Source of the DNA: Gemmatimonadota bacterium
Lineage (GTDB): Bacteria > Gemmatimonadota > Gemmatimonadetes > Longimicrobiales > Gaopeijiaceae
Assembly: GCA_029262115.1 (NCBI GenBank)
Contig: JAJCZZ010000008.1
Location: 1-64,000 of the forward strand
Length of the DNA stretch: 64,000 nucleotides
Direction: 5' to 3'
A program made the translations under genes and the position numbers. A model generated the notes under the pieces. That model saw only the letters and a program-made list of their open reading frames with translations, searched no databases and was not told where the DNA came from. Shown here piece after piece: positions 24,116 through 32,583 of the stretch; within the stretch, counting starts at the first letter, position 1, and every line of letters begins with the position of its first letter.

Positions 24116-26284
24116 CTACCCCGCAAACGCTTCGTAGAACGTCTCCCCGCGCTTCGCGAGGCGCTCGAGCGCGGGTGCGGGCTGGAAGCGCAGTCCGTGC
24201 GCTTCCGCCAGGTCACGGAGTCCGCCGAGAACGACCTCCACGCCGAGAGCGTCGGCATACCGGAGGAGGCCGCCAAGGAACGGAGGGAAGCCCGTTCCCA
24301 TGATCATGCCGAGATCGACGTCGGCCGCCGTCCGAACGATGCCATCGTCCAGAATACGCGCGGCTTCGTTGATCATCTGGTAGACGAGACGACGCTCGAT
24401 CTCGTCGTTGCTGACGGCGCCTGCCCGGTCGGGCTTCTCGCCTCCGATATCGGAGTAGACCGAGTCGTCGACCCTCTGCTCCTTACCGTTCTCGTAGACG
24501 TAGAAGCCCCGCCCCCCCTTCCGGCCGAGGCGGTCGGTTTCTCCGAGAGCGGACAGCGCGCGGGACGGCTCGAAGCGGTCGCCGAGCCCGTCGTGGAGCG
24601 CCGTACCGGCATGGCGAGACACGTCGATGCCGACCTCGTCCACGAGCCGCAACGGTCCCATCGGCATACCGAAACGCTTCGCTGCTCGGTCGACGTCCTC
24701 GATCGATGCCCCGCCGTCCAGGAGGAAGCCGGCCTCGTTCAAATACGGACCGAGGATCCTGTTCACAAGGAAGCCCGGCCCGTCCTTCACGACCACCGGC
24801 ACCTTTCCGAAGCGAAGCGCCAGCGCGTAGGTGGTGGCGATTGTCGTGTCGTCGGTCGCGGCGCCGCGTACCACCTCGATCAGCGGCATCTTGTGCACTG
24901 GATTGAAGAAGTGCATGCCGCAAAAACGGGTTGGATCCCCGAGCGCGCCCGCCATGAGGTCGACGGACAGCGACGACGTGTTGGTGGCGAGCACGCACGT
25001 CTCCGCCACCTGCTCCTCGAGTTCGGCGAGCACCGCGCGCTTCACGTCCATCCGTTCGACCACGGCCTCCACGACGAGGTCGCAGGCAGAGAAGCCGGAG
25101 TAGTCCACTCCGCCCGAGATCCGCTCCATCATCTGGGCGGCGTCACGGTGCCGGAGCTTGTGTCGCTCGACCGCCTTGTCGAACAGTTGTCGAGCATGCT
25201 GAAGCCCACTGGCCACCGCTTCGTGGCGGATATCCTTTATCCGCACGCGGATTCCATTGAAGGCGGCCAACTGCGCGATCCCGCCACCCATCACGCCGGC
25301 GCCCACCACGCCGAGCGTGTCGATGTCTCTCTCCCTCACGTCGGTTGCGACGCCGAGCCCTTTCCGCGCCGCCTCCCTCATGTGGAAGACATGGATGAGG
25401 TTCTTGGAGACGTCGGAGGTGACCAGCTCCGCCGCAAGGCGGGCCTCGGCGTCCAGGCTGCGTTGGACGCTCGACCCGAGGTGATCCGACAGGAGGTCGA
25501 GGATCGTCATGGGCGCCGGGTAGTGTCCGCCCGTCGTCGCCTTCACCTTCTTTCGAGCTGTGGCCAGGACCACCCGGCGTCCGAGCGAAGTATCGTCGAC
25601 CATTCTCGCCAGAAAGCCCCGCTTCTTCAGCGACGAGCCCGCCGGCAGGTCCTTCGCGCCCAACGCGAAGTCGGCCACCGCCTCTTCGAACAGATCCGCG
25701 GGGACGACCTGACCCGCGAAACCCACCCGTTCGGCTTTACGGGCGTTCATCGGCTTACCCGTGAGGAGCAGGTCGAGCGCGGGGCGGAGGCCGATGAGGC
25801 GCGGGAGGCGGGTGGTGCCGCCCCAAGCCGGGAGGATGCCGAGTTGCACCTCGGGTAGGCCGATCTTCGTGCGGTCGTCATCGGAGACGACCCGGTGTGT
25901 GCAGGCCAGCGACAGCTCCGTTCCGCCACCCATGCACGTGCCGTGGATCGCGGCGACGGTCGGGACCGGGAGGGTTTCCAGCTCCATGTAGATCGCCTGG
26001 CCTTCCCGGATGCGGGCCTCGGCGACCTGGGCGTCCGTGATTTCGGCGATGGCGTCGACGTCCGCCCCGACGATGAACGACCCGGACTTTCCGCTACGTA
26101 CCACGACCACTTCGATCCGATCGTCGGCGGCGGCGGATCGGGCTTCCGTAAGCGCCAGGGCGAGCCGCTCCATCACCGGCTCCGTGAGGACGTTCGCGCG
26201 CCGGTCGGGGTCGTCGAACGTGATCCAGCCGATGCCTCGGGGATCGACCTCGAAAGTGGGGCTGGCCGAAGGGGACCCGTCCAT
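24116..26284 (-). CDS. fadJ: Fused enoyl-CoA hydratase / 3-hydroxyacyl-CoA dehydrogenase
   Basis: 722 aa from the ATG at 26284, close to E. coli FadJ (714). The crotonase domain (about 10-190) has the oxyanion-hole segment HGTCMGGGTELSLAC and the second acidic residue in GLPEVQLGILPAWGGTTRLP. The dehydrogenase NAD domain starts near 320 with GVVGAGVMGGGIAQLAAFNG and holds the catalytic region CGMHFFNPVHKMPLIEVV. Two C-terminal 3HCDH helical units follow. It performs hydration and oxidation in fatty acid beta-oxidation. The thiolase partner is not in the window. It heads an operon-like run into MocA/XdhC/CoxI/DUF402. Confidence 0.93.
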   Translation of the reverse strand: MDGSPSASPTFEVDPRGIGWITFDDPDRRANVLTEPVMERLALALTEARSAAADDRIEVVVVRSGKSGSFIVGADVDAIAEITDAQVAEARIREGQAIYMELETLPVPTVAAIHGTCMGGGTELSLACTHRVVSDDDRTKIGLPEVQLGILPAWGGTTRLPRLIGLRPALDLLLTGKPMNARKAERVGFAGQVVPADLFEEAVADFALGAKDLPAGSSLKKRGFLARMVDDTSLGRRVVLATARKKVKATTGGHYPAPMTILDLLSDHLGSSVQRSLDAEARLAAELVTSDVSKNLIHVFHMREAARKGLGVATDVRERDIDTLGVVGAGVMGGGIAQLAAFNGIRVRIKDIRHEAVASGLQHARQLFDKAVERHKLRHRDAAQMMERISGGVDYSGFSACDLVVEAVVERMDVKRAVLAELEEQVAETCVLATNTSSLSVDLMAGALGDPTRFCGMHFFNPVHKMPLIEVVRGAATDDTTIATTYALALRFGKVPVVVKDGPGFLVNRILGPYLNEAGFLLDGGASIEDVDRAAKRFGMPMGPLRLVDEVGIDVSRHAGTALHDGLGDRFEPSRALSALGETDRLGRKGGRGFYVYENGKEQRVDDSVYSDIGGEKPDRAGAVSNDEIERRLVYQMINEAARILDDGIVRTAADVDLGMIMGTGFPPFLGGLLRYADALGVEVVLGGLRDLAEAHGLRFQPAPALERLAKRGETFYEAFAG

Positions 26285-26357
26285 GTGCGACTCGATCAGA
26301 GGGTGGAAGTGAGGGTACACCCGAAGCTCACACCGAACGGCCAGCCGGGAAATGCGA

Positions 26358-26390
26358 ACGCCGCCCCGGCACAGCGTGCCGGGGCGGCGT
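26358..26390 (-). terminator. Terminator-like hairpin after the coiled-coil lipoprotein gene
   Basis: ACGCCGCCCCGGCAC (26358-26372) and its perfect complement (26376-26390) form a 15-bp stem with a 3-nt loop. It lies 28 bases beyond the minus-strand stop at 26418 and before the fadJ-like start. In the minus direction only a weak ATTT follows, typical for GC-rich genomes. Confidence 0.7.
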
Positions 26391-26417
26391 CGACCGACCG
26401 AGAACCGACCAGCGGCC

Positions 26418-27188
26418 TCAGAACTTGATGCGTTCCTCGGCGTTTTCTCGAGTGAGCCGCACCTGCTCAGGATCACCGCGATCGAGCGTCACCGGCACGT
26501 TCCAGTACAACTCCGAGTAGGGCAGTTCGTACCGGGCGTGCACCCAGTAGTTCCCGGGCGGGGCCTGGATCCGGACCATGCCCGTCGAATCGGTGGTGTC
26601 TACCACCGCCTGGAGCCCTACCTCCTGTGCTTTGACCGTGAAGACGTCGAAGGCATCGGAGAACGCCTCGTCCGCCCAGTTGTCGATCTGGATGCGCATC
26701 GAGTCGGATCGCTGGATCGTGGCGTTCTGAACCTCCGTGAACGCCGCAAACGCCCGGTTCATCTCCCTCTCGACGCGCCCGTACTGGGACTCCAGATCCT
26801 GGAACTCCCGGAAGAGAAGGCGGTAGCGGGCCTCCCCGCGATTGAACTGCTCCATCGCGGCGGTGATCGTTTGAAGCGTGTCACGGAGAGTGTTCCACTG
26901 GTCCTCGGCCGCCCGCCACGCCTGCTGGGCGCGCTGGACCTCGGCCCGCGCCTGGATCAGGTCGGCCGGAGGGGTCGGCTCAGGCCTCCCGAACGCTGCC
27001 TCGAGCGAATCGAAGACCTGGTCCCGATCGTACGGGAGCAACTGGACTTCCATGTCACCCAGGATGATCGCGCCGGCCTCGCCTTCAGCGGGATCGCCGG
27101 TGAGCTCCATGTTCACGATGAGCTCGGCCGGACCGCAGGCACCGGCAGCCGTCAAAAGGGCTACTGCAAACGGACGTAAAAGCCGCAT
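26418..27188 (-). CDS. Coiled-coil lipoprotein
   Basis: 256 aa. Signal peptide with lipobox-like AGAC (residues 15-18), then a short beta region and a long coiled coil, about 75-165 (QARAEVQRAQQAWRAAEDQW and ESQYGRVEREMNRAFAAF). The C-terminal beta-sandwich contains VRIQAPPGNYWVHARYELP, resembling carboxypeptidase-regulatory-like or transthyretin-like folds. No catalytic motif. Probably an envelope structural or regulatory protein; function not recognised. Confidence 0.65.
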   Translation of the reverse strand: MRLLRPFAVALLTAAGACGPAELIVNMELTGDPAEGEAGAIILGDMEVQLLPYDRDQVFDSLEAAFGRPEPTPPADLIQARAEVQRAQQAWRAAEDQWNTLRDTLQTITAAMEQFNRGEARYRLLFREFQDLESQYGRVEREMNRAFAAFTEVQNATIQRSDSMRIQIDNWADEAFSDAFDVFTVKAQEVGLQAVVDTTDSTGMVRIQAPPGNYWVHARYELPYSELYWNVPVTLDRGDPEQVRLTRENAEERIKF

Positions 27189-27315: not shown

Positions 27316-28590
27316 TCAGCGGGGCACGAGATCGGGGCCGAGCCGAAGCACCCTCGGTTCGCCGAGTGCGCCGGCGGTCTCCTGTACCGTGTGCGCGTTC
27401 AACTCCCAGATGTCCTTCAATAGATCCCTGGGCCCGACGCCACGCGCCAGATCGGCGGCCGTCCGAGCGGCCTCGACCTCCGGTCTCGATTCCCCGAGGA
27501 GGAGGGACGTACGAAAGCGTCGACGTCGCCACTGGAAGAAGTCGTTGGGTATGGGTTCCTCGGCGAGGCCAGATACCACGTCCTGAATCCGTTCCTCCCA
27601 CCGGTCGGCCGCCTCGGGCAGCACCGAGACATCCACGACGAGAACCACGCCCCGGGGGACCTGCTCCAGACGCACGTCGACGTTGAAGCGGTCGGGCGAC
27701 GGTGGAACCGGATCCAGCTCTTCGTCGATCAGGTGCGCCACCATCTCGACAGCGGTCTGCGATGTGCCTGCGGGCACCGGGTAGGCGACCGTGATCCACG
27801 TACTCGTCACCTCCCGATCGAGGAGAGTGCGGTCGCCCAGGTACCAAGCCTGGGCGACCGTGCCCCGGGGGATGTCGTTGGGGCGGACTGGACCGTCGGG
27901 GACCGGGCCCACCAGGGCGGCTACCGCCTGATCACGTCGAAGATGCCGTCCTTTCCAGGCGCTCAGGCCCTCGATGTCGAGGGAATCAACCGATGCGAGG
28001 GTGCCCCGGACCGGACGGGCCCACTCGCTCCCCGGGTCGCCGAGCACGGAGGCAGCCTCTCGCCGGAAGTCCATGGCGGGAGAACCGGCCTCAAAGACCA
28101 GTCGCCCCTGAAGGCGGGCTCGCTGGCGCTCGAGGGCGTCAGGCTGGATCTGGCCTCTGAACAAGAGATCGGCGACGCGGTCCCAGGCGGAGTGCCAGGC
28201 GTTGGGCACCGCAAGGAGGGAGAAGGTCGTATGTCCTCGGTCGACCTCGACCGTGAGGACGGCGTCCGCGGGATCGAGAAGTTCGTCCGCCTGCGCGATC
28301 AGGGTGCGAGCCAGGAGCCAGGCCGTACCCTCGGCACCGACGGGGTCGTCCGCTGAACCGGTGGGGAACCGAACCGAGAGCGCCACCATGGTGCCGTCGT
28401 TGTGGCTCCGCACGGCGGCGTCGGCGAATCCCTCCAACCCGAACGCGCTCATCGTTGGCGCGACCGGGGCGGGAGCGGTTTGTGACAGAATCGGAGCGCC
28501 CGTCATGGCCAGGAGCCCACCCCAGAGCACCGCGTGGCCGACGGCGGTGCGGACCCGTGGGGAACCGGTCGCCTGACCGGGGCGCCTCAT
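27316..28590 (-). CDS. M16-peptidase-like protein without zinc site
   Basis: 424 aa with an N-terminal hydrophobic signal (AVLWGGLLAMTGAPILS). The body follows the M16 (insulinase/PqqL) lobe pattern: MVALSVRFPTGSADDPVGAEGTAWLL and later a second M16-type lobe (DREVTSTWITVAYPVPAG, VVLVVDVSVLPEAADRWEE). Where active enzymes have HxxEH in GTAHLLEHM it has GTAWLLARTL, so zinc ligands and general base are lost. It starts in an ATGA overlap with a second M16-like gene. Likely a periplasmic structural or binding subunit; partner unknown. Confidence 0.75.
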   Translation of the reverse strand: MRRPGQATGSPRVRTAVGHAVLWGGLLAMTGAPILSQTAPAPVAPTMSAFGLEGFADAAVRSHNDGTMVALSVRFPTGSADDPVGAEGTAWLLARTLIAQADELLDPADAVLTVEVDRGHTTFSLLAVPNAWHSAWDRVADLLFRGQIQPDALERQRARLQGRLVFEAGSPAMDFRREAASVLGDPGSEWARPVRGTLASVDSLDIEGLSAWKGRHLRRDQAVAALVGPVPDGPVRPNDIPRGTVAQAWYLGDRTLLDREVTSTWITVAYPVPAGTSQTAVEMVAHLIDEELDPVPPSPDRFNVDVRLEQVPRGVVLVVDVSVLPEAADRWEERIQDVVSGLAEEPIPNDFFQWRRRRFRTSLLLGESRPEVEAARTAADLARGVGPRDLLKDIWELNAHTVQETAGALGEPRVLRLGPDLVPR

Positions 28591-29840
28591 GGTCGGACCT
28601 CCGCTTCGACGAAGCCGCCCGCGACCATGTCGCTGAGAAAGCGTTCGACCGCGGCCGAATCGATGCGGTCGAGTGCGTCGACGTACCGGGCGGCAGTTTC
28701 CGGGCGCCCGGTGCTATCCAGTCCCCGCCCGACCATCGCGACCCGGCCACCCGGCGTCCGCGCCCCGAGCAGGACGTCACGCCGGACACGGGCGACGGCG
28801 TGCGTCACTTCCGCCTCCGTGAGACCGTCCTTGGTGGCGATCACGGCGTTCGCAACCGAAGCGCGCAGGCGACTGATGTCGGCCCGGTACGCGGCTCCCA
28901 GGACGGCGACCGACCACCGGTCCTGCAACTCCCAGAGCTCAACGCCCGCTTCGAAGCCGTCGGCCTGTGCCGCCACCGTCTCGGCAATCAGGAGCGCCGC
29001 TACCGGGCCCACGGGGTCCGACGGCGATCCTGCCCACCAGGCGCGACCGTACCACCTCCGAAGGGTGTCGATTCGCGGGTCGCCGTCCCTCGGCGCGGGC
29101 GCGGCGGAGGGCTTCGATCCGGCCTGTGCAGGCGCACCGAGCCCCCGGGTGCTCGCCAGGACCACCTCGAGCGGTACCGCGGCCGCGACCACGATGTACA
29201 TCACATCGGCCTGGTGGCTCCTGGCCCAGACATCGCGGATCCTCCCGGCATCGAGGGTCGCCACGGAGGAGGGTGTCCCCCTCGCAGCCGTCTGATTCGG
29301 GGCCACCCGTCGGCGAAGGAGGTCCAGGATACGCGGGCCGGGCGCCTCTCTCACACGCGCGATGTCGGCCTGTGCTCGTTGACGGGCCGCCCCCAGGCTG
29401 ATCGGGCTGAGATTCGGCTCCCCTGCGCCTTCACGCAGCAGGTAGGCGAGATACTCGAGGTCGGCGACGGCGCCTTCGACCGCGTAGGCCAGTCCTCTTG
29501 GTGTACGAGTCACCGACGTGCGGGCGCCGATGGGCCGGGCGAGGCCCTCCATCCGGCTCTGGGCCAGGTTCCGGAGGAGTTCTCCCGCGCCCCCCTCGGA
29601 CGGCCCCTCCGTCAGTGGCACCGAAAGCCGCAGGGCCGCCACCCCGCTCGACGAAGGCGTGAGCATGACGATCATCGGTCCCCCCGGCGGGCTGATGACG
29701 GTATCCGCCAGGAACACGCTCGCCGGGGTCGGTTGTGCCCGAAGTTCATGGGAGGACCCCGTGCAGATGACGAATGCCGCCAGCACCACCGGTGTCACCC
29801 GGCAGGATCGAGCACGCGAGGGGGTACGGAGTGGGACCAT
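28587..29840 (-). CDS. Second M16-peptidase-like protein without zinc site
   Basis: 417 aa from the ATG at 29840; a GTG at 29885 would overlap the upstream hairpin and neither start has a good ribosome site. Signal peptide VTPVVLAAFVICTGSSHELRAQ. The M16-like N lobe has SVPLTEGPSEGGAGELLRNLA where the zinc motif should be, so HxxEH is absent here as well. Later VMYIVVAAAVPLEVVLA and VSVAVLG-like strands fit the M16 fold. M16 enzymes often occur as one catalytic and one inactive subunit; here both partners are inactive by sequence. Confidence 0.7.
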   Translation of the reverse strand: MVPLRTPSRARSCRVTPVVLAAFVICTGSSHELRAQPTPASVFLADTVISPPGGPMIVMLTPSSSGVAALRLSVPLTEGPSEGGAGELLRNLAQSRMEGLARPIGARTSVTRTPRGLAYAVEGAVADLEYLAYLLREGAGEPNLSPISLGAARQRAQADIARVREAPGPRILDLLRRRVAPNQTAARGTPSSVATLDAGRIRDVWARSHQADVMYIVVAAAVPLEVVLASTRGLGAPAQAGSKPSAAPAPRDGDPRIDTLRRWYGRAWWAGSPSDPVGPVAALLIAETVAAQADGFEAGVELWELQDRWSVAVLGAAYRADISRLRASVANAVIATKDGLTEAEVTHAVARVRRDVLLGARTPGGRVAMVGRGLDSTGRPETAARYVDALDRIDSAAVERFLSDMVAGGFVEAEVRP

Positions 29841-29846
29841 AGGATA

Positions 29847-29866
29847 AAGGCGCCAGACGGCGCCTT
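29847..29866 (-). terminator. Terminator after the M23 peptidase gene
   Basis: AAGGCGCC (29847-29854), loop AGAC, GGCGCCTT (29859-29866) is a perfect 8-bp stem. On the minus strand it is followed by TTTATCC, a short T-run. It lies 44 bases past the M23 stop and just before the start of the M16-like gene. Confidence 0.6.
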
Positions 29867-29909
29867 CGGTGGTTGAGCGGAGCACTGAGTCGTCAGGGAC
29901 GACGTGAGC

Positions 29910-31014: not shown

Positions 31015-32583
31015 TCAATCGGCGCCGGTGTCGGTGCTCGACCAGGGCGAATCGATACGGGGGAAGAGGGGGTCCCCTTTCGTGGCGGAGAGGCCGGCGA
31101 CGGGCAGGGCCACGGCTTGGTCCAGTGTTGGCACTTCACCCAAGCCGAGTCGGCTCACCAGTTCTTCCATTTTCTTCGGCGCGACAGGTTGAAAGAGGGC
31201 GCACAGCGCCACGAGTGACCGGCACAGGCTGGCGAGCGTCTCGTCCAATCCTTCCTGGTCCTCCGACGACTTCGCCTGACTCCAGGGTTGCCGCTCTTCC
31301 ACATACCCGTTGGCGGCACGGGCGAGGTCCATGGCCGCGGCCATCGCATCATGGACCTTGTACGCCCCCATGGCGGTCCGTGCGTCGGCGAAGGCGGTCT
31401 GGATGGAGGCGTCCAGTCCGATGCCCGGGGCGGCCGGAACGACGCCGCCCCGGTACTTCCCGACCATCGACATCACCCGACTCGCGAGGTTGCCGAGGAC
31501 GTTCGCGAGCTCGTCGTACCGTGTGAGGAACCGTTCCGGGGTGAACGAAGCGTCTCCACCCGTTGGCATCTCCCGCATGAGATACCACCGTACCGCGTCG
31601 GTCCCGAACGTCTCCCGCAGCGCCATGGGATCGATCACGTTGCCGAGCGACTTCGACATCTTGGTGTCACCGACGACCCACCATCCGTGCGCCAAGATCT
31701 GCCTCTGCACCGGGAGGCCGACGGCCATGAGCAGCGTGGGCCAATACACGGCGTGGGTGGTGATGATGTCCTTGCCCATGATGTGCAAATCTGCGGGCCA
31801 CCACGAACCGGTCGTATCCTCGAAGCCCTGCTGGCCTACCGGCGCGTCAGGTCGGATCGCTCCGGATGCGGTCAGATAGTTGATCAGGGCGTCGACCCAG
31901 ACGTAGGCGACGTGCTGATCGTCGAACGGCAGCGGAATCCCCCAGGACACACGTGCCCTCGGGCGCGAGATCGACAGGTCGCCGAGAGGCTGCTGGAGGA
32001 ACCCGATGATCTCGTTGCGCCTCATTTCGGGGACGATCCAGTCAGGGTTCTCCTCGATGTGGCGGAGGAGGTCATCCTGGAAGGCGCTCATGCGGAAGAA
32101 GTAGTTGGATTCCTCCACGTACCGGACCGGCCGCCCACAATCGGGACACGTGTTGTCTGGACCCAGATCTTTCTCCGTCCAGTAGCGCTCTTCGTGGATG
32201 CAGTACCAGCCCGAGTATTCCCCCTGGTATATGTGACCCAGGTCGGCCAGGCGTTGGACGAACGCGGTGACCACCGCGATGTGCTCCGCCTCGGTGGTAC
32301 GGATGAAGCGGTCGTGCGAAATGTCCAGCCGCTCCCACGCTGCTTGGAAGCGCTCCGCCATGAGGTCGCATAGCTCAATGGGCGCGAGGCCCCGCCGCTC
32401 GGCTTCCTCCTGGATCTTCGGTCCGTGCTCGTCCGTGCCGGTCAGGAAGAGGACCTCGGCCCCGTCCTGCCGATGGAACCGGGCGAGCACGTCCGCCAGG
32501 ACGGTCGTGTAGGCGTGGCCGATGTGTGGGTCGCCCGAGGCATAATAGATGGGCGTGGTCAAGTAGGTACGTCGGGGCGTCAC
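31015..32583 (-). CDS. metG: Methionyl-tRNA synthetase
   Basis: 522 aa from the GTG at 32583, which overlaps the ricT stop (GTGA). Class I signature HIGH in DPHIGHAYTTV near 21 and KMSKSLGN near 303. A zinc knuckle lies near 146-149 (CPDCGRP) with an upstream Cys in GWYCIHEERYWTEKDL. The C-terminal helical anticodon domain is present; there is no additional tRNA-binding Trbp111-like domain. It charges tRNA-Met in the cytoplasm. It is the third gene of accA-ricT-metG. Confidence 0.97.
   Translation of the reverse strand: MTPRRTYLTTPIYYASGDPHIGHAYTTVLADVLARFHRQDGAEVLFLTGTDEHGPKIQEEAERRGLAPIELCDLMAERFQAAWERLDISHDRFIRTTEAEHIAVVTAFVQRLADLGHIYQGEYSGWYCIHEERYWTEKDLGPDNTCPDCGRPVRYVEESNYFFRMSAFQDDLLRHIEENPDWIVPEMRRNEIIGFLQQPLGDLSISRPRARVSWGIPLPFDDQHVAYVWVDALINYLTASGAIRPDAPVGQQGFEDTTGSWWPADLHIMGKDIITTHAVYWPTLLMAVGLPVQRQILAHGWWVVGDTKMSKSLGNVIDPMALRETFGTDAVRWYLMREMPTGGDASFTPERFLTRYDELANVLGNLASRVMSMVGKYRGGVVPAAPGIGLDASIQTAFADARTAMGAYKVHDAMAAAMDLARAANGYVEERQPWSQAKSSEDQEGLDETLASLCRSLVALCALFQPVAPKKMEELVSRLGLGEVPTLDQAVALPVAGLSATKGDPLFPRIDSPWSSTDTGAD

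Follow-up and report, generated by a model that had tools for sequence, protein, structure and literature searches.

A gene pair for apparently exported proteins with the predicted M16B protease fold and no detectable catalytic site, and its possible role as a binding chamber in a Gemmatimonadota bacterium

The window considered here, the whole stretch of 64,000 nucleotides analysed from a Gemmatimonadota bacterium, carries two adjoining genes, P1 and P2, that lie between the gene of an M23 endopeptidase and that of a putative lipoprotein (Table 1). Both open reading frames (ORFs) of the overlapping pair announced in a preliminary description of this DNA are present, and they share an ATGA that holds the stop of P1 and the start of P2 and suggests translational coupling. 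At the same junction in 56 ORF pairs checked, P1 ends in ATGA (30 pairs), GTGA (12), CTGA (12), TTGA (1) or GTAG (1). Position 29840, given earlier as the end of the pair, is an in-frame ATG within P1, at residue 16. Judged by eye, the N termini of both proteins look like signal peptides. Because P1 and P2 recur as neighbouring genes in relatives throughout the order, they are not a chance reading of the sequence.

Table 1. The gene pair, its motif columns and its neighbours in the window
Feature	Position	Strand	Basis or remark
metG (methionyl-tRNA synthetase), upstream neighbour	31015..32583	-	PF09334, E=3.3e-98
M23 (LytM) endopeptidase, N-terminal part hydrophobic and coiled-coil, immediately upstream of P1	29910..30839	-	PF01551, E=4.6e-33
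P1, apparently exported M16B-fold protein, zinc site lost	28587..29885	-	432 aa from GTG
HxxEH columns in P1, residues 102-106 (ELLRN)	29568..29582	-	Alignment with f3 HxxQH and f5 HFLEH homologues; coordinates hand-counted
ATGA overlap, P1 stop/P2 start	28587..28590	-	4 bases
P2, apparently exported M16B-fold partner subunit, no HxxEH	27316..28590	-	424 aa
HxxEH columns in P2, residues 91-95 (WLLAR)	28306..28320	-	Alignment; coordinates hand-counted
Coiled-coil putative lipoprotein, directly downstream of P2	26418..27188	-	No Pfam family above cut-off
fadJ-like enoyl-CoA hydratase/3-hydroxyacyl-CoA dehydrogenase, downstream neighbour	24116..26476	-	Pfam scan

M16 pairs are known as one active and one inactive half. 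The M16 identity of P1 and P2 is weak by single sequence and clear by profile and predicted structure. As a single sequence P1 matched no M16 model in Pfam, and P2 matched PF00675 at E=0.018 with 15.4 bits, under the gathering cut-off of 22.3; by gathering cut-off neither protein belongs to PF00675 or PF05193. Eight further proteins (four P1, two P2 and two candidate P2 of diverged genera) were all unmatched in Pfam at E<=0.01, an NCBIfam scan of P1 and P2 returned no family for either, and phmmer searches of the PDB with the single P1 and P2 sequences gave weak matches only, mostly to M16. Both subunits of a homologous locus in another family, f5 (L102), exceed the cut-offs of the two Pfam models. 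Profiles were then the more telling instrument: A1 for P1 and A2 for P2 were built from 23 sequences each, the window sequence included, and against the PDB the best A1 match stood at 2.9e-12 (about 1e-10 for bc1 core protein 2) and the best A2 match at 6.4e-19 (6.6e-16 for 3amj_B, an inactive zinc peptidase subunit), the matches listed (best 60 of 81 for A1, best 60 of 67 for A2) being M16-fold chains. AlphaFold2 models of P1 and P2 (mean pLDDT 87.8 and 88.8, pTM 0.84 and 0.83) align with 3eoq_B (VIA Z 35.2, rmsd 2.4, 359 residues) and 3eoq_A (VIA Z 32.4, rmsd 3.2, 357 residues), respectively. For both models the best structural matches, over about 340-380 aligned residues, are 3eoq, a Thermus zinc protease subunit and presumably TTHA1264, together with the TTHA1264/TTHA1265 complex and the bc1 core proteins. 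Models and profiles give P1 and P2 alike the two-domain fold of an M16 subunit, which upholds the M16-like identity first proposed for both genes.

The catalytic features are another matter. The preliminary description had both genes lacking the zinc site, with ELLRNLA and TAWLLARTL in place of HxxEH, and in the alignment both strings do sit at the columns of the HxxEH helix, while HxxEH is absent along the full length of P1 and P2 in the window. The P1 model has one unbroken helix, residues 100-119, at the motif position. Some 75 residues past the motif, the distal Glu column that provides the third zinc ligand holds Asp in the P1 of the window. The eight residues directly after the motif are missing in 21/21 P1 and 16/16 P2 rows aligned with f5. 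The Arg column of the R/Y pair falls inside a six-residue gap in 16/16 P2 rows aligned, in an alignment that is uncertain here, since in some f3 rows a different Arg stands a few residues ahead of the Tyr; the Tyr column holds Tyr in 11 of these 16 rows and Phe in the P2 of the window. Of the features that mark an active M16B pair, namely HxxEH in one subunit, the third zinc ligand and the R/Y pair, the window pair has none: it has the M16B fold, yet it is outside the active M16B peptidases by the features tested.

The loss is conserved in relatives. Among distinct ORFs of the extracted loci that score over 100, with fragments and the window included, HxxEH occurs in 0/74 P1 and in 4/66 P2, and in none of the latter at the motif helix. 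Considered as a displaced zinc motif, the four P2 strings were rejected, since none belongs to the motif helix: those of L071 and L072 come just ahead of the motif, that of L310 follows it, and that of L172 is in the out-of-frame head of an over-long ORF. The alignment thus reveals no displaced but intact zinc motif of the kind that would have overturned the first description, and none of the examined genes of the order is an active P1 or P2 by motif. In P1 rows outside family f3, the first motif His column holds His in 0/51 rows with a letter, the second-His column in 1/51 (L173), and the catalytic Glu column holds Glu in 0/51 and Gln in 14/51, four further such rows being gapped at the motif columns. 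Glu stands in the distal column of 20/20 f3 rows and 15/52 other P1 rows.

The same operon slot is found in three states. In f5, a family of the same class, it holds an ordinary pair, in which HFLEH is present in all four loci with the gene on the contig (L102, L222, L223, L224) and the partner subunit carries the R/Y pair as LREK..LAY or LREK..LGY. The neighbours are those of the window: metG, M23, the pair, the lipoprotein and fadJ are all present in L102 and L224; L223 has metG, M23, the pair and fadJ, with the lipoprotein unmatched; in L222, whose contig stops short of M23, the pair is followed by the lipoprotein; and the fifth locus, L221, is cut ahead of the first M16 gene. In f3, a family of the same order as the window, P1 has HxxQH in 20/20 genomes with a match, with CAG as the Gln codon in every one. 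The second His and the distal Glu are 75 residues apart in L102 and 67 in L095 (f3), a difference that matches the eight-residue gap. Given that f3 keeps HxxQH and the distal Glu while its catalytic Glu is Gln, its P1 looks, by sequence, able to bind zinc and unable to cut. In f1, the family of the window, and in f2, rows that cover the motif have neither HxxEH nor HxxQH, and we infer an order of catalytic losses across these states. An ordinary arrangement with an active partner, which the preliminary description allowed might explain the locus, therefore exists in the f5 slot, but the window pair is all-inactive. Because f5 holds an active subunit and its partner in this very slot, the window pair seems to descend, its activity lost, from an ordinary pair and not to be a new assembly.

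Whether such proteins might still be proteases with an altered catalytic site, using zinc with Gln in f3, for example, and other residues in f1, deserves consideration in light of the three zinc ligands that are invariant in f3 (20/20). However, the general base is Gln in the same 20/20, the window lacks both motif histidines, the aligned R/Y arginine and the post-motif loop are missing in f3 and in the family of the window, and the PDB contains E-to-Q M16 mutants, one of them titled 'inactive mutant'; retained proteolysis is accordingly very unlikely. Within the family of the window, seven loci (L093, L099, L100, L101, L103, L156 and L157, of genera g2, g7 and g17) have a very diverged P1, with A1 scores of 114-143 bits, and in L093 and L101 a gene of partner size follows it, perhaps a fast-evolving P2.

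In the tree, the P1 rows fall on one side of a branch (support 100) and the P2 rows likewise (98). In the best tree the f5 genes stand next to neither P1 nor P2; constraining them with P1/P2 gave AU p values of 0.433 and 0.415, so that the constraint is not rejected. Because the tree leaves the f5 genes apart without rejecting that constraint, descent from the f5 pair rests on gene order and on the ranking of profile matches. In four f5 genomes the active gene of the slot is the top A1 match (85.3, 64.2, 60.8 and 57.7 bits), the next-best being the slot partner at 41.6 bits in G007, matches of 23.4 bits in G003 and 22.6 bits in G023, and none in G015; in G019, an f5 genome whose slot is cut, the top A1 match is another gene, at 35.4 bits. 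When 395 genomes of the phylum were searched with A1 at E<=1e-15, with at most four candidates scored per genome, the matches outside the order were three f5 slot genes only. P1 probably descended from an active, zinc-bearing subunit of the f5 type. The A2 profile did not single out the f5 partner and, because it does not discriminate, the probable descent of P2 from the partner subunit rests on gene order.

The pair is dispensable. An A1 match at E<=1e-10 is present in 80/154 genomes of the order; in the class sample P1 alone matches 41/198 genomes and P2 54/198, both counts including some ordinary M16 genes of other families; and both genes are missing from 49 of 80 named loci, a few or more of which are truncated. 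Absence from many relatives, together with an interrupted P1 in one of them, is what might be seen if these were two functionless genes on the way to loss. Substitution rates point elsewhere. Across 15 pairs from six close genomes of genus g5, dN/dS was 0.09-0.25 for P1 (median 0.18), 0.18-0.36 for P2 (median 0.27, over the last 380 codons, some ORFs being over-long at the start) and 0.15-0.25 for M23 (median 0.20); across 15 pairs from one f3 genus it was 0.10-0.52 for P1. Values below 1 throughout are expected of genes in use and speak against decay. With dN/dS low and near that of the neighbouring M23 gene (within g5, six genomes), a fold predicted with confidence and retention in those 80 genomes of the order, impending loss is a very unlikely account of the pair. 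The interrupted gene is that of L083 (G183), in which stops split P1 into several frames while P2 and the neighbours remain, through either decay or an assembly fault.

If the pair is in use, its neighbours may indicate for what. Of 74 P1 loci, the window included and many of them cut by contig ends, 64 have M23, 62 have P2, 59 have metG, 50 have the lipoprotein and 39 have fadJ. Five P1 loci that have upstream sequence show no M23 match (L076, L079, L139, L158, L169), and the remaining five without a match are cut loci. In f3, M23 is present in 18/20 loci; the lipoprotein adjoins P2 in 1/20, lies 2.4-5 kb off in 5 and is absent from the fetched stretch in 14. In five genomes (G018, G029, G153, G179, G193) the best lipoprotein match is on a different contig from P1. 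Members of the lipoprotein family, which served as an anchor to find loci, occur in 131/198 genomes of the class. At many loci the lipoprotein gene comes straight after that of M23, and many loci that lack the pair have these two genes as neighbours. Ties of either protein to the pair are suggested by gene order, with exceptions, and the lipoprotein tie is weaker than the M23 tie, which is itself not strict. Given that M23 occurs without the pair in many genomes and that a few loci have the pair without an adjoining M23, any regulatory or scaffolding part played by the pair would be an optional one.

Two other ideas about these neighbours were set aside. In f9 and f6, the longer operon-strand ORFs between M23 and the lipoprotein, candidates for diverged M16 genes, are unlike M16 by eye. 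The M23 protein of the window has Asn for the first His of HxH (NLH), a position taken by Asn in 16/132 distinct M23 rows and by Ser or Thr in two others, most of them from loci that lack the dead pair. With f5 loci counted as 'without', the change is commoner in loci that lack the pair (14 Asn and 1 Thr among 67 rows) than in those that have it (2 Asn and 1 Ser among 65 rows, one other of which is cut), and no tie between the dead pair and a degenerate M23 was found.

The genome also has M16 genes on six other contigs, each with an HxxEH gene, so the search for an active M16 gene that the preliminary description advised finds several. In one such place (L104, contig C9), four M16 genes stand in tandem, two with HLFEH alternating with two without. 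In three named loci of relatives (L305, L308 and L309) the opposite strand carries one more M16-like gene, about 9-10 kb downstream of the pair and running off the stretch. P1 and P2 could then serve as decoy or regulatory subunits for an active M16 enzyme encoded elsewhere, for example by pairing with its active subunit, and both the additional HxxEH genes of this genome and the nearby M16 gene of those three loci would be suited to it. Yet P1 and P2 stay each other's adjacent partners throughout the order, and the HxxEH genes of contig C9, alternating as they do with HxxEH-less genes, seem already to have partners. A decoy or regulatory function of this kind is unlikely.

Three roles had been proposed at the outset for an all-inactive pair, and a binding chamber or scaffold fits best. 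P1 and P2 would form an exported, non-cutting M16B clam shell of ordinary, active ancestry that serves as a periplasmic binding chamber or scaffold for a peptide or protein, a reading to which we give a probability of about one half. A binding or scaffold role would be the simplest fit to the fold, the paired genes and the selection that have been kept while the catalytic chemistry was lost. In mechanistic terms, an ordinary active pair in the same operon slot would have given rise to P1 from its zinc-bearing subunit and to P2 from the partner; the catalytic Glu, the zinc ligands, the R/Y arginine and the post-motif loop would have been lost, and the fold, the adjacency of the genes and selection on their sequence retained; and the clam shell would now hold a peptide or protein in the envelope without cleaving it. 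Heterodimer formation, the periplasmic location and ligand binding are what we infer for P1 and P2. Candidate partners would be the M23 endopeptidase first, because it is the most constant envelope neighbour, and the coiled-coil lipoprotein second. The third role, a factor for outer-membrane protein assembly or a chaperone, could draw on the apparent export and on the putative lipoprotein encoded alongside in the window; nothing pointing specifically to it was found, however, and there is no assembly gene among the eight Pfam-scanned proteins (the pair plus six of its neighbours), which leaves it highly improbable. A more specific and decidedly speculative elaboration of the binding chamber would have an envelope protease turned into a receptor through stages that are still extant, active in f5, a zinc-bearing, non-cutting trap with a fixed E-to-Q change in f3 and a metal-free chamber in the family of the window, the chamber sensing or clamping a peptide so as to steer the adjoining M23 enzyme.

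Ordinary forms, forms with zinc ligands and a fixed E-to-Q change, and forms without the zinc histidines share one operon position within one bacterial class, and so graded a series allows the passage from protease to binding protein to be tested on natural homologues. Further, because Pfam missed 10/10 members scanned, similar pairs may go overlooked elsewhere. In the open-licence literature of PubMed Central, the titles and abstract openings listed mention no bacterial all-inactive M16 pair, searches for HXXQH with zinc and for Longimicrobium with insulinase gave nothing, and a search for Gemmatimonadetes peptidase M16 gave nothing related by title.

Among known systems, the M16B heterodimers TTHA1264/TTHA1265 of Thermus and SPH2681/SPH2682 of Sphingomonas are like P1/P2 in fold (about 355-365 residues) and in being encoded by two adjacent genes. 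Both are described as active heterodimers (PMC12731061), and they have HxxEH in one subunit, whereas P1/P2 have none and are without the aligned R/Y arginine and the post-motif loop. The E-to-Q change that is natural in f3 P1 (20/20) corresponds to that in the laboratory mutants yeast MPP beta E73Q and hydrogenosomal HPP E56Q, as named in PDB titles; those are made mutants of active enzymes, whereas f3 is also without the aligned partner arginine and the loop. For an all-inactive M16-fold pair, the known precedent is mitochondrial complex III (PMC12731061). Its bc1 core proteins I and II form an M16B-fold pair like P1/P2 and are among the best fold matches of our models; yeast core I is without HxxEH; and no bc1 gene is among the eight proteins Pfam-scanned at the locus. 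The core proteins are usually not proteolytic and are assumed to be structural, and QCR9 is bound in their cavity (PMC12731061 and PMC11266112). The bc1 core proteins belong to a mitochondrial respiratory complex, whereas P1 and P2 come from bacteria, look exported and usually have their genes downstream of one for an M23 endopeptidase.
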